Source: a virus
Virus record (IMG/VR): IMGVR_UViG_3300022198_003008
Coordinates: 1 to 20,569 of that record
Reading direction: 5' to 3' (one strand)
Length of the DNA: 20,569 nucleotides
The position numbers were made by a program, and so were the translations under genes. The stretch's first letter is position 1, and each line of letters starts with the position of its first letter. This document shows, piece after piece, positions 13,889 to 20,110 of the stretch. The notes under the pieces are model-generated. The model saw nothing but the letters and a program-made list of their open reading frames with translations. It did not search any database and had not been told where the DNA came from.

Positions 13889-14683
13889 ATGAAGTTAAAA
13901 GACGGACAATCGAACGAAGTAGCGATTAAACAACAAGCAGGCGCAGTTGCATCTATTAATATAGAGCAATTCGCTGATGAAGGATTTGATAACGTAGACT
14001 CAAATAGTTTAGCGTTACCATTTCTTAAAGTTCTTGGACAACTTTCACCACAAGTCACACAAGGTGATAGTCAATATATAGCGGAAGCTAGACCAGGAAT
14101 GATCTACAACACTGTGACCAACGAGTTATATAATGGAGCAGAAGGTATACGTGTAATACCATGTTTCTATAAACTCGAGTACATCGAATGGAAGGATAGA
14201 GATAAGGGTGCAGTTGCTCCTGTAAATGTTTATCCTGCTGATTCGGATATCATGTCTAAAACTACTAGAGACGAAAAAGGTAAAGATAGACTTGAAAATG
14301 GTAACTATGTAGAGGAAACAGCTTCACATTACATTATGGTGGTGGAACCTGATAAATCTTCTACGGCATTGCTCACAATGAAATCCACTCAAAGAAAAAA
14401 ATCTAAGAAGTGGAATTCTATGATGATGTCTCTCAGACAAAAGAGAAAAGATGGTAAAGGTTTCTTTAGACCTGCACCATTTACTCAAGAGTACCTACTT
14501 AAAACTGTTCTTGAAAAGAACAATTTAGGTTCTTGGTATGGTTGGGAGATCGAGCATATAGGACAAGTGGAGAGCGAAGAAACAATCAAAGCAGCTTTTG
14601 ACTTTTATGAGTCATGCAAAAAAGGTGCTGTGAGAGCAACCCACAACAACGAAGAACAACAGTCAGAAAAAACACCATTCTAA
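13889..14683 (+). CDS. Probable single-stranded-DNA-binding protein
   Basis: The 264-aa protein lacks enzyme motifs but has the traits of a phage SSB-like protein. It has a compact N-terminal domain (residues about 35-110, LPFLKVLGQLSPQVTQGD and EGIRVIPCFYKLEYIEW), a basic middle segment (TQRKKSKKWNSMMMSLRQKRKDGKG), and a C-terminal tail rich in Asn, Glu and Gln that ends in EKTPF. A terminal Pro-Phe after a polar/acidic tail is the partner-binding tip of bacterial SSB, and T7 gp2.5 also ends in an acidic tail with a final Phe. It lies one base before the primase gene, where an SSB is expected. Start ATG 13889 has only a weak AGG upstream. Alternatively it may be a recombination mediator; an OB-fold is not provable by eye. 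Confidence 0.65.
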   Translation: MKLKDGQSNEVAIKQQAGAVASINIEQFADEGFDNVDSNSLALPFLKVLGQLSPQVTQGDSQYIAEARPGMIYNTVTNELYNGAEGIRVIPCFYKLEYIEWKDRDKGAVAPVNVYPADSDIMSKTTRDEKGKDRLENGNYVEETASHYIMVVEPDKSSTALLTMKSTQRKKSKKWNSMMMSLRQKRKDGKGFFRPAPFTQEYLLKTVLEKNNLGSWYGWEIEHIGQVESEETIKAAFDFYESCKKGAVRATHNNEEQQSEKTPF

Positions 14684-14684
14684 T

Positions 14685-16259
14685 ATGGATATACTTGACA
14701 ACACCTTGGAAGAGTTTGTAGAACTCTTCCAGGGCTCTTCTACATATTTTGGTGCTTCGCAACCATTAGGTCAAACTCGTGGCCGTGATGGTAAGCAAGA
14801 ATTTAGACATTGGGTGGAACCTAAACCAATGACTAAAGAACATTGGTTACAACATTTAAAAGGAGAAAAATATTATGGAAGTGTTCCTATCAGAGATGAT
14901 AATACATGTAGTTGGGGGGTCATTGATGTTGATCGCTACAATATACAACATAAAGAAGTTATATCAGTTATACGGAAAAGGAAGTACCCACTCATCCCGT
15001 TCCGATCAAAATCCAACGGACTCCATTTAATTTTATTCATTGATGGTGTAGTTCCTGCAGGAGCGATGCGTAGGAAGTTAATTGAGATTGCATCGGACTT
15101 AGGTGTAAATGATTCGACTACGGATATTTATCCTGCACAAGATGAAGTTGATTTAACTCCTGAAGATTGGGATCAAAAAAGAAAAGGTAACTTTGTAAAC
15201 TTACCTTATCAAAAGGCACACATGACTACCAGAGTTGCAATGGACAATGATGGTAATTCAATTAAGTTAGAAAATTTATTTAAATTTGTCTCTGAGTATA
15301 GATTAAAACCTGCAGAGTTTAAAAAATTAAAAATATTTCAAGACGATGAAACTAAAGACTACCCACCTTGTGTAATTAACTTTATGAAAAATAGAGTTCA
15401 AAAAGGTGAAGGTCGTAATGATGCTATGTTTAACGTAGCAGTATTAGCAAAAAAAATTAATCCAGATGCTGTTATGTATCAAGATTGGACACGTAACATG
15501 ATGACTAAGGTTTGTAGTGAACCCTTACACCCGCAGGAGTTAAATAATATTTTTAAAGGTGTAGAGAACAAAGACTATGCCTACAAATGTAAAACATCAA
15601 TTGCACGAATGCATTGTGTGTCAAGCACTTGTATAAAAAGAAAGTTTGGTATTGGTGCTAATGAAGCATTACCTGAAGTTGGTAAACTATTAAAGGTAAA
15701 CTCTTATCCAGAACCTTATTGGATACTTCCTATTCAAGGTAAATCTATTCGACTATCTACAAAACAATTATACCAACAACAGTTGTTGGGAGAAGCTTTA
15801 TTAAATTATGATATTGTATGGCGACCTTTGAAGCCTACTAAAAGAGATCCAGACCCTTATCGTGATTGGCTTGATGAACTCATTCAAAACAAACAAGACA
15901 TGGAAGGTTTTGATGAAGGTGAGGAAATGGATGATGTGTTTAATTCTAGAATGACTAGGTTCTTAGAAGATGTGGAAGATACTACAGAATTTGATCAAAT
16001 CGAATCAGGTAACATCTGGAGAGATGAAAATGAGATGAGGTTTAAGCTAGAAACCTTCAGATCCTTTATGAAAAAAATGGGTTATAATTGGAACGAAAAA
16101 GAATGTACGAGATTTTTAGAAACAGGTGGAGCAATACCTAAAAAGAAATTTCAAAACATTAGCAGCAGGCATTGGGTAGTAGCATTGCCTAAACAAACAG
16201 AGCATAAAAATAAAGATGTCAAATTCGTTAAAGCAAAAGCTGCGTGGGAAGACAATTAA
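14685..16259 (+). CDS. Archaeo-eukaryotic-type primase (AEP / TOTE-like primase domain)
   Basis: The 524-aa protein shows the three AEP catalytic elements: WGVIDVD with D81 and D83 (metal-binding DxD), FRSKSNGLHLILFI with S110 and H114 (SxGxH nucleotide-binding motif), and TDIYPAQD with D147, followed by GNFVNLPY. This is the domain that Pfam names after TOTE conflict systems and is common in phage replication blocks. It synthesises primers on single-stranded DNA. A later KCKTSIARMHCVSSTCIKRKFGIG-type region (three Cys plus His, near residues 305-325) looks like a zinc or Fe-S site of phage primases; no helicase motifs follow. The start lies one base after the SSB-like gene. A 13-bp hairpin covers codons 7-17. 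It overlaps the UvrD gene by 44 bases. Confidence 0.85.
   Translation: MDILDNTLEEFVELFQGSSTYFGASQPLGQTRGRDGKQEFRHWVEPKPMTKEHWLQHLKGEKYYGSVPIRDDNTCSWGVIDVDRYNIQHKEVISVIRKRKYPLIPFRSKSNGLHLILFIDGVVPAGAMRRKLIEIASDLGVNDSTTDIYPAQDEVDLTPEDWDQKRKGNFVNLPYQKAHMTTRVAMDNDGNSIKLENLFKFVSEYRLKPAEFKKLKIFQDDETKDYPPCVINFMKNRVQKGEGRNDAMFNVAVLAKKINPDAVMYQDWTRNMMTKVCSEPLHPQELNNIFKGVENKDYAYKCKTSIARMHCVSSTCIKRKFGIGANEALPEVGKLLKVNSYPEPYWILPIQGKSIRLSTKQLYQQQLLGEALLNYDIVWRPLKPTKRDPDPYRDWLDELIQNKQDMEGFDEGEEMDDVFNSRMTRFLEDVEDTTEFDQIESGNIWRDENEMRFKLETFRSFMKKMGYNWNEKECTRFLETGGAIPKKKFQNISSRHWVVALPKQTEHKNKDVKFVKAKAAWEDN
14704..14734 (+). promoter_or_regulatory. Strong RNA hairpin inside the start of the primase gene
   Basis: CCTTGGAAGAGTT (14704-14716) pairs with AACTCTTCCAGGG (14722-14734) over 13 bp, with one G-U pair, around the loop TGTAG. 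Ten of these pairs are an unbroken perfect repeat. It lies 19 bases after the primase ATG, in codons 7-17. No T-run follows directly, so a simple terminator is unlikely; a translation brake or an RNase III site is possible. Confidence 0.5.
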
Positions 16260-18073: not shown

Positions 18074-18242
18074 GTTATTTGAACCAATTATTTGTGAAGA
18101 ATGTAACTTAGATAAAGCAGTTATTATTCATGAAAAAATTTACTATTGTGCAGATTGTTATATATTTCTGGTAGATATGCCTTGGGATAATGCACTTACA
18201 AACATTAAAAAAAATGGATTTAACTCAAAATTAAAAAACTAA
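18048..18242 (+). CDS. 64-aa zinc-ribbon-like small protein
   Basis: Two CxxC pairs, CEEC (C16, C19) and CADC (C34, C37), separated by 14 residues, form a likely single zinc ribbon. A hydrophobic YIFLVDMPWDNAL segment follows, then a basic tail. Nothing else allows a family name. It starts within the DUF3310 gene (26-base overlap) and its stop shares a base with the polA ATG (TAATG), so it is translated with the polymerase and may bind DNA or the replication proteins. Small zinc ribbons in phages can also bind RNA polymerase; the choice is open. Confidence 0.7.
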   Translation: MSQIKKRNKLFEPIICEECNLDKAVIIHEKIYYCADCYIFLVDMPWDNALTNIKKNGFNSKLKN

Positions 18243-20110
18243 TGACTCATCAATTAAATTTTATATACAATGACAGTGATTGGATTTGTCCATCAGAATA
18301 CCCAGACTTATCCAAAGCAACTGAAATAGCAATCGACTTAGAAACTAAGGATCCAAACATTAAAAGTAAAGGCGCAGGTTGGGCAACCTTTGATGGTCAT
18401 ATCGTAGGGTTTGCAGTAGCAGCTCTTGGTCAACAATGGTATTTTCCAATAGCTCATGACGCAGGGGGTAATATGGACTCTGCAATTACAACGGCATGGA
18501 TGCAAGATATTTTAAGACTTCCTGCAACTAAAGTATTTCATAATGCTTCTTATGATGTGGGTTGGTTATTAGTAAATGGATTTGAAATCAGAGGTAAGAT
18601 TGTTGATACCATGATTGCTGCTGCTCTAATTAATGAAAACAGATTTAGTTTTAGTCTGAACGCATGTGCTAAAGATTATTTAGGAGAAATTAAAAACGAA
18701 ACATTCTTAAATGAAAAAGCGAAAGAATGGGGTATCGATCCTAAAGCAGATTTATGGAGACTCCCTGCAGGCTATGTAGGTTATTATGCTGAACAAGATG
18801 CAGGTTTAACTTTAAGATTATGGGAAAGATTTAAAACAGAAATTACTAAACAAAGTTTACATGATGTGTGGGAGATGGAGATGGAGCTGCTCCCTATATT
18901 AATAGAAACAAGAAGAACTGGAATTAGAGTAGATGAAGAAAAGGCAGAAATATTAAAAAAAGAATTTAAGAAAAAAGAATCTGAAGTGTTATATAAAATA
19001 AAAAAAGAGACAACTTTAGATGTAGATATTTGGGCAGCACGTTCGGTAGCGCAAGTGTTTGACCGTATCGGTGTGGATTATCCACGGACAGCGAAAACCG
19101 AAGAACCAAGCTTTACCCAAAACTGGCTAGTGAACTGTGATAACCCGATAGCGCAACTAATAAGAGAAGCAAGAGAAATAAATAAATTTCATTCAACATT
19201 CATAGACTCCATTCAAAGATATGTTCACAAAGGTAGAATACATTCCGAAATAAATCAGTTACGATCTGACCAAGGTGGAACTGTAAGTGGACGTTTATCA
19301 TATTCAAACCCAAACTTGCAACAGATTCCTGCACGAAACAAAGAATATGGAGATAAAATTAGAAGTTTGTTTTTACCAGAAGAAGGTAGACAATGGGGTA
19401 GTTTCGACTACTCACAACAAGAGCCTAGGCTTGTTGCACACTATGCTGCATCCGTGAACGATCATTTCGAGGGTGCAGCAGAGTTTATTGAAGCTTATAA
19501 AAATGAATCTGCGGACTTCCATCAAATTGTGGCAGATATGGCAGGAATTACTAGATCTCAAGCTAAAACTATTAATTTAGGATTATTTTATGGTATGGGT
19601 AAAAATAAATTAGGCCAGGAGTTGGGTATTTCTAAGGATAAAGCTGAAGCTTTATTAAGGCAATATGGTGATAGAGTACCATTTGTTAAGAAATTAGCTA
19701 CAGATGTGTCTAGCTCTGCCTCAAAATATGGGTTTATTCGCACGATAAGGGGTCGTAAATGCCGATTTGACATGTGGGAGCCATCTACCTTCGGAATGAA
19801 CAAAGCTATGCAATATGAGGAGGCTAAAGCAATTTATGGCAATAACATCAGAAGAGCCTTTACTTACAAGGCTTTGAATAGATTAATCCAAGGATCAGCT
19901 GCAGATCAAACAAAACAAGCTATGATTGATTGTTACAAGGCAGGTTATAAACCACTATTACAAATCCATGATGAATTATGTTTTTCAATTAATGAAGAAT
20001 CTGATATAAAAGCTGTAAAGGAGATAATGGAAAATGCAATCGAAGATCTCAAAGTACCTTCCAAAGTTGATATCGCACTTGGACGATCCTGGGGAGAAGC
20101 CAAGGAATAA
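18242..20110 (+). CDS. polA: Family A DNA polymerase with 3'-5' exonuclease domain
   Basis: The 622-aa replicative polymerase has an N-terminal DnaQ-like proofreading domain, IAIDLET with D32 and E34, FHNASYD with N101 and D105, and YYAEQDA with Y182 and D186, so editing is intact. The polymerase domain shows motif A GSFDYSQQEPR (catalytic D389), motif B RSQAKTINLGLFYG (R438, K442, L446, Y450) and motif C LLQIHDE (D577, E578). There is no 5'-3' nuclease domain, as usual for phage PolA. L446 aligns with position 762 of E. coli Pol I, where Phe or Tyr is common; Leu there has been linked in marine viruses to slower, possibly temperate replication. The start is coupled to the zinc-ribbon gene by TAATG. 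No DnaJ-like zinc insertion of the HMO-2011 polymerase is seen. Confidence 0.95.
   Translation: MTHQLNFIYNDSDWICPSEYPDLSKATEIAIDLETKDPNIKSKGAGWATFDGHIVGFAVAALGQQWYFPIAHDAGGNMDSAITTAWMQDILRLPATKVFHNASYDVGWLLVNGFEIRGKIVDTMIAAALINENRFSFSLNACAKDYLGEIKNETFLNEKAKEWGIDPKADLWRLPAGYVGYYAEQDAGLTLRLWERFKTEITKQSLHDVWEMEMELLPILIETRRTGIRVDEEKAEILKKEFKKKESEVLYKIKKETTLDVDIWAARSVAQVFDRIGVDYPRTAKTEEPSFTQNWLVNCDNPIAQLIREAREINKFHSTFIDSIQRYVHKGRIHSEINQLRSDQGGTVSGRLSYSNPNLQQIPARNKEYGDKIRSLFLPEEGRQWGSFDYSQQEPRLVAHYAASVNDHFEGAAEFIEAYKNESADFHQIVADMAGITRSQAKTINLGLFYGMGKNKLGQELGISKDKAEALLRQYGDRVPFVKKLATDVSSSASKYGFIRTIRGRKCRFDMWEPSTFGMNKAMQYEEAKAIYGNNIRRAFTYKALNRLIQGSAADQTKQAMIDCYKAGYKPLLQIHDELCFSINEESDIKAVKEIMENAIEDLKVPSKVDIALGRSWGEAKE

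Follow-up and report, generated by a model that had tools for sequence, protein, structure and literature searches.

The start of a phage primase gene was analysed in a viral DNA stretch of 20,569 bases (IMG/VR virus record IMGVR_UViG_3300022198_003008, here called the window). The gene is an open reading frame of 524 codons that adjoins a gp34-like gene, and its codons 7-17 contain a hairpin. The initial annotation had described this hairpin as a perfect 10-bp inverted repeat, extendable to 13 bp with one G-U pair and with a 5-base loop (14704-14734). The description was confirmed by reading of the sequence and by a repeat search, which gave an inverted repeat of 13 nt with 92% complementarity and arms 5 nt apart. 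The arms CCTTGGAAGAGTT and AACTCTTCCAGGG enclose the loop TGTAG, and the single U.G pair of the 13-bp stem is 14706.14732.

The folding energy of the hairpin was compared with that of shuffled sequences. The minimum free energy of codons 7-17 was -20.9 kcal/mol, while the null obtained by shuffling these codons among synonymous codons of the same gene was -4.5 +/- 2.8 kcal/mol, and none of 10,000 shuffles folded as well. The hairpin had been called unexpected in coding DNA and codon-shuffled controls had been proposed as a check; these controls did not reproduce the stem, which bears the claim out. Among 6,070 in-frame 33-nt segments of coding sequences the hairpin showed the lowest energy, and among 45-nt segments over the entire + strand it came second to a site at 19441. 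That site (19441-19485), located in the DNA polymerase gene, is the strongest 45-nt + strand fold of the window (-21.3). Dinucleotide shuffles of a 77-nt stretch gave a weaker signal (z -2.39, 5 of 200). Rfam release 15 gave no match in the window above the gathering threshold, and the sole match at a lax threshold was sub-threshold and lies on the - strand at 14755-14829. An intrinsic terminator has a GC stem followed by a T run; here the stem is followed by CTCTTCTACA, and the terminator scan listed no + strand site here.

Selection on the stem beyond the protein

The conservation of the pairing was analysed in homologous loci gathered with peptide patterns located away from the stem. Two sets were obtained, with 80 loci kept of 292 and 80 kept of 254. 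The sets have some contigs in common, and the stem region is present in 79 loci of the first and 80 of the second. All 13 pairs were retained in 78 and 65 loci respectively, and 12 pairs in the other one and 15, which gives 143 of 159 loci with 13 pairs and 16 with 12. Loci found through the stem itself were left out of this count as biased. It had been stated beforehand that homologues keeping the protein and losing the pairing would speak against the hairpin, and no homologue that loses the pairing was found among the 159 loci. A wider set, which includes stem-found loci, comprised 172 distinct genes, in which codons 7-18 occur in 61 distinct versions; 13 pairs form in 55 of these versions and 12 in the other 6. 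The motif filter used for this set missed 6 of 273 loci. Five of them (L240, L251, L252, L266 and the truncated L135) retain the stem, and L019 begins at residue 49, so that it is without the stem region.

Selection on the structure is strong and exceeds that on the protein. Substitutions were counted by the Fitch method on a 163-tip tree constructed from other, later codons. The third positions of the primase gene changed 19.2 times on average; none of these changes fell in codons 8, 10 and 14, whose variation would disrupt a pair or make it weaker, and codons 11, 12, 13 and 15 showed 1, 2, 2 and 4 changes. The changes gather where pairing survives, with 14 at 14706, 21 at 14710 and 24 at 14711, the last two being A-U/G.U sites. 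The pair 14706/14732 was C-G in 110 tips, U-A in 27, U-G in 26 and C-A in none, all by synonymous changes. Codon 15 is TTT in six contigs and the pair is kept as G.U in each of them (the control pattern for this search matched 195 of 206 loci). The ratio of observed to expected synonymous change was near zero at codons 4, 5, 10, 12 and 14. Consensus folding of the primase gene in 95 representatives revealed its minimum at the stem (z -7.8). When 7.5 kb were folded for the 40 loci aligned of 47 available, the stem reached z -17.7, and the next locus (-6.7) was the stem's own antisense. The element is single-copy in 11 of 11 long contigs, where no second copy was found at up to 3 mismatches. Its motif gave no exact match in bacterial genomes, so at that sensitivity no host copy or attachment site was detected.

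The folding strand was deduced from the stem variants. On the sense strand 6 of 793 cells were unpaired, compared with 80 of 793 on the complement; therefore it is the sense strand that folds. When A is replaced by G at 14710 or 14711, the cost is 0.3-0.5 kcal/mol for an RNA stem and 2.7 kcal/mol for a DNA stem, and such changes are frequent. Judged by these costs and by the free occurrence of the changes, RNA appears a better fit than DNA. An overlapping reading frame was considered and rejected: of 170 relatives, 158 and 170 have stops in the other two sense frames, and 151 and 163 have them in two of the antisense frames, the third antisense frame being stop-free over 90 nt in 102.

The unpaired parts of the element are conserved as well. 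The loop bases 14717, 14719 and 14720 are conserved although unpaired, and each side of the stem has a conserved unpaired flank, TACTTGAC on the 5' side and ACATATTTT on the 3' side. The hexamer TTGACA at 14695-14700 is present in 163 of 170 relatives. The peptide EFVELFQG is itself conserved. In the L139-like clade (L139, L214-L217, L240, L251, L252, L266) TTGACA is lost and the loop is changed, and the stem is retained; the stem is the lasting part of the element. The conserved flanks and loop bases make it likely that the element is read sequence-specifically in the main lineage. Two further structures were considered and dropped. A pseudoknot of the loop with CUACA at 14740-14744 pairs in the window itself, but 14718/14743 is A.C in 60 of 170 relatives, and only a minority of variants form a standard pair at 14721/14740. 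Sequestration of the start codon by the 3' flank, seen in the minimum-free-energy fold of the window, is absent from the consensus fold, and the stop-to-start gap is variable.

The gp34/primase junction in the window and in other phages

Table 1. Features at the gp34/primase junction of the window
Feature	Position	Strand	Remarks
Upstream gene	13889..14683	+	Pam3_Gp34 family (PF23977)
Junction	14681..14687	+	gp34-like stop TAA 14681-14683, one spacer base, primase ATG 14685-14687
Primase gene	14685..16259	+	Pfam AEP-TOTE domain (PF22548), PHROG 21866
5' unpaired conserved flank TACTTGAC	14692..14699	+	159/170 relatives; overlaps TTGACA
5' arm of stem, codons 7-11	14704..14716	+	read in sequence, repeat search, conservation
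Loop UGUAG	14717..14721	+	14718 G or A; U14717, U14719, A14720 nearly invariant though unpaired
3' arm of stem, codons 13-17	14722..14734	+	read in sequence, repeat search, conservation
3' unpaired conserved flank ACATATTTT	14742..14750	+	158/170 relatives

The initial annotation had put the stem inside the primase gene, as a possible cut site separating SSB-like from primase mRNA. The stem lies, under selection, where the gp34-like gene meets the primase gene, and in the window the two genes are one base apart (Table 1); the stop-to-start gap differs among relatives. A Shine-Dalgarno-like run of at least 4 nt before the primase start was found in none of 168 window-group relatives. Nearly all relatives have PF at the end of the gp34-like product (14672-14683), an end which presumably resembles the tail of single-strand-binding proteins; a comparison of the gp34-like protein with solved structures gave no match. 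The closest named phages at the DNA level are the Pelagibacter phages HTVC023P, with HTCC1062 as its recorded host, and HTVC027P. The identity to HTVC023P is 24% for the primase and 63% for DNA polymerase I (18242-20110), and the replication module seems mosaic. The primase gene overlaps a UvrD-like helicase gene by 44 nt (16216-16259), and synonymous change, analysed with one of 80 genes (L007) left out for an internal stop, is low at the primase end, as expected of an overlap.

A different stem was found at codons 16-27 of the primase in HTVC023P-type Pelagibacter phages (61 genes, 39 representatives), where it is the consensus-fold minimum of the gene (z -7.6). Compensatory synonymous changes are seen at pair 57/72 (C-G 35, U-A 25, U-G 1) and pair 54/75 (U-A 60, A-U 1). 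The inner 10 bp are intact in all 61 genes. Of the outer pairs, 47/80 and 49/78 do not form in 4 of 61 genes each when this register is used, and two of the sequences concerned, L305 and L352, pair in an alternative register. The third positions of the loop are free, with 14 and 13 changes at codons 21 and 22 (mean 8.1). At 56, 50 and 46% identity, relatives carry further distinct stems at these codons. None of 400 codon shuffles was equally stable for L351, L353, L355, L357, L362, L341 or HTVC023P. The Shine-Dalgarno run is missing in 59 of 60 members of this group. A small stem at their codons 4-11, complete in 12 of 17 unique stretches and with no compensatory change, was not relied on.

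In the HTVC027P group (70 genes, 25 representatives) and the 023Pt group (55 genes, 31 representatives) codons 1-30 of the primase contained no stem; their hairpin lies within the spacer ahead of the primase. In HTVC027P relatives the spacer stem is compensatory at pair 37/64 (A-U 12, C-G 18, U-A 1, G-C 4) and is missing in one of 35 rows (L432), and in 023Pt relatives GC-rich stems of varying length are followed by TTTAC. The Shine-Dalgarno run GGAGG was found in 51 of 70 HTVC027P relatives and no run in 52 of 59 023Pt relatives; therefore the absence of the run is not strictly tied to an in-gene stem. In the L205/HTVC027P group part of the GGAGG that is the apparent ribosome site of the primase, shortly ahead of its ATG, belongs to the 3' arm of the hairpin in the spacer, and the stem could mask this site. 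Spacer hairpins were also found in DSL-LC04 (z -4.6), R26L (z -1.99) and Pan1 (z -3.0). Unlike its spacer hairpin, an in-gene hairpin of DSL-LC04 (z -2.0 over codons 2-25, -0.44 over 2-32) was not counted. The hosts of the phages with gp34-primase spacer hairpins are very different, as seen for L536 (DSL-LC04), L539 (Pan1), L538 (HTVC027P) and L537 (023Pt).

The Pam3_Gp34 gene is directly upstream of the primase in all six named phages, and the junction hairpin folds in the window and in all six, most weakly in R26L. Phages that have no gp34 upstream showed no significant stem in the first primase codons; the lowest among them was Manatee, with 45/1000 over codons 2-25 and 88/400 over codons 2-32. 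The different hairpins at the same junction in related ocean phages point to a hidden control on the amount of primase.

Proposed role of the element and its alternatives

The selection, the folding of the sense strand, the position and the recurrence across lineages are observed, and an RNA element controlling the amount of primase would be the simplest account of the four. We put at roughly 0.65 the probability that the element is a cis-acting sense-strand RNA stem-loop at the gp34/primase boundary of a polycistronic replication mRNA, setting the primase output relative to the upstream genes. In the proposed mechanism gp34 and primase would share one mRNA, as assumed from gene order, and the primase would be translated mainly by ribosomes that end gp34 and restart at the adjoining AUG. 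Where such restart does not occur the stem would fold, its first pair being 20 nt into the gene, just past a ribosome on the AUG. The folded stem would then either repress translation or mark or shield the mRNA for decay, and primase would be made in a lower amount than gp34. The fixed loop and flanks of the window lineage suggest an additional reader, which may be a protein (the primase itself or gp34) or an RNA. By judgement, translational control as the mode of action falls somewhat short of an even chance, and mRNA processing or stability is a tentative and lesser candidate. RNase III cutting and a translational brake, both suggested by the initial annotation, are possible.

A wider proposal is doubtful as a joint claim. 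A stem at the gp34/primase boundary may be a standing requirement of the phage replication operon, served by an unrelated stem in each lineage, in the spacer or, where the genes abut, in the primase frame, and the stem of the window lineage may have turned into an operator whose sequence is recognised by the primase or gp34. The conserved loop and flanks are only suggestive of an autogenous translational operator. If this reading holds, the primase would to our knowledge be the first AEP-type phage primase under feedback control.

The alternatives were weighed against this proposal of an RNA element. A site at which host RNase III splits the gp34 mRNA from the primase mRNA, or which acts as an exonuclease stopper, so that the gp34 message outlives the primase message, is the decay branch of the proposed mechanism taken alone, and in that form it is unlikely. 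It agrees with structures that share no common sequence across lineages, whether in spacer or gene, with the free loop third positions of the HTVC023P group and with the precedent of segmental mRNA stability in the puf operon (PMC6238624). However, the fixed loop and unpaired flanks of the window lineage exceed the needs of a processing stem, and ribosomes would be expected to keep opening a stem inside a translated gene. The anatomy is fitted best by a rival that is on the whole quite improbable, namely a site in single-stranded DNA at which priming or replication starts and which is recognised by the AEP-family primase of the same gene, comparable to RepB' on ssiA of RSF1010. The conserved 5' tail, hairpin and conserved 3' tail, the AEP superfamily of the primase, the single copy per genome in the 11 long contigs and the pairing kept on one strand only would all suit such a site. 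Against it, the A-to-G stem changes, costly in DNA, occur near the ordinary third-position rate; a GC-skew switch at the primase was found neither in HTVC023P nor in three window relatives, two of them analysed over 58-60 kb and the third over 80 kb; and the unrelated stems at the primase start or in the preceding spacer of other lineages are left unexplained.

A DNA structure used in replication had also been offered by the initial annotation. Its double-stranded form, a palindrome acting as cruciform, recombination site or operator of a dimeric protein, draws on the near-perfect inverted repeat, but finds no support in a symmetry that is kept on the sense strand only, with 80 unpaired cells on the complement against 6, and is very improbable. 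Equally remote is the absence of function, the stem being a by-product of constraint on the protein or codon use or of an overlapping frame. The conserved EFVELFQG peptide, a second low-divergence zone in the primase gene and the stop-free antisense frame are in line with it, whereas the codon shuffles, the near-zero synonymous ratios, the coupled synonymous change at 14706/14732, the stops in the two other sense frames and two antisense frames and the lack, among the 159 loci, of relatives with a kept peptide and free synonymous codons contradict it. Finally, TTGACA had been noted as a consensus hexamer with no fitting -10, and the sigma-70 scan (TTGACA and TATAAT 16-18 nt apart) accordingly listed no + strand promoter at 14695. 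A promoter here, from which the primase gene and the genes after it would be transcribed, is hardly credible: the retention of TTGACA in most relatives favours it, but the scan lists no promoter-like pair at the hexamer and the L139-like clade has the stem without TTGACA.

Several observations weigh against control of primase output by an RNA stem-loop. The folding cost does not predict the synonymous changes (Spearman 0.04, n = 12), because the unpaired loop and flank bases are equally conserved. Synonymous change is equally low at codons of about 52-62 and 71-92 (14838-14960), where there is no conserved fold. A role of the sense strand as single-stranded DNA is conceivable. Intergenic hairpins are common, and the junction hairpin ranks just 12th-37th in the examined stretch of HTVC027P, 023Pt, Pan1 and DSL-LC04. 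The 023Pt junction hairpin, a GC stem followed by TTTAC, may be a plain terminator, and RNAalifold on the 023Pt alignment gave no structure. The phages without gp34 directly upstream form a thin control, since only the spacer of Kokobel2 is plainly unfolded (0 kcal/mol). The VLCpiS6a spacer (455 nt, of which 276 nt were folded) has a strong terminator-like stem in its first part, and in the Manatee Spring and Acinetobacter phages the upstream genes are on the opposite strand, which makes these phages unfair controls.

Comparison with known systems

The RNA element at the start of the primase gene is strongly selected and has unrelated counterparts in sister lineages, and so offers a concrete control point that can be tested. 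It shows that compact phage genomes can conceal RNA structure within coding sequence, and two placements of such an element, in the spacer and inside the gene, can be compared. The literature search, which included pelagiphage with RNA secondary structure, found no description of such an element.

The puf element of Rhodobacter is an intercistronic hairpin located between genes. A comparable position, at the boundary of the gp34-like stop and the primase, is held by the hairpin in the window and in the six named phages, with a shared mRNA assumed from gene order. Both stems lie, in an alphaproteobacterial setting, at a boundary of genes that are co-transcribed in puf (PMC6238624) and presumably here, and uneven gene output, the purpose proposed for the puf hairpin, is likewise proposed here. 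Unlike the puf hairpin, the stems of two lineages form part of the downstream gene itself, and in one of these lineages the loop and flanks are conserved. The T4-type translational operators (gp43 hairpin, gp32 pseudoknot; PMC3014915) are similar in that they control phage replication-protein genes by an RNA structure near the translation start, as is proposed here; the loop sequence matters for the gp43 operator. In contrast to these operators, the present stem lies after the start codon, within the coding sequence, and its reader protein is only putative. The ssiA and ssiB sites of RSF1010 with RepB' (PMC4434180) share with the present element a hairpin between unpaired tails and a primase of the AEP superfamily. 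RSF1010 has one ssi site per strand; here one copy was found on the sense strand, the only strand searched. The ssi sites act as single-stranded DNA (PMC4434180), whereas the substitution pattern of the present element, which lies inside the primase gene, fits RNA better.
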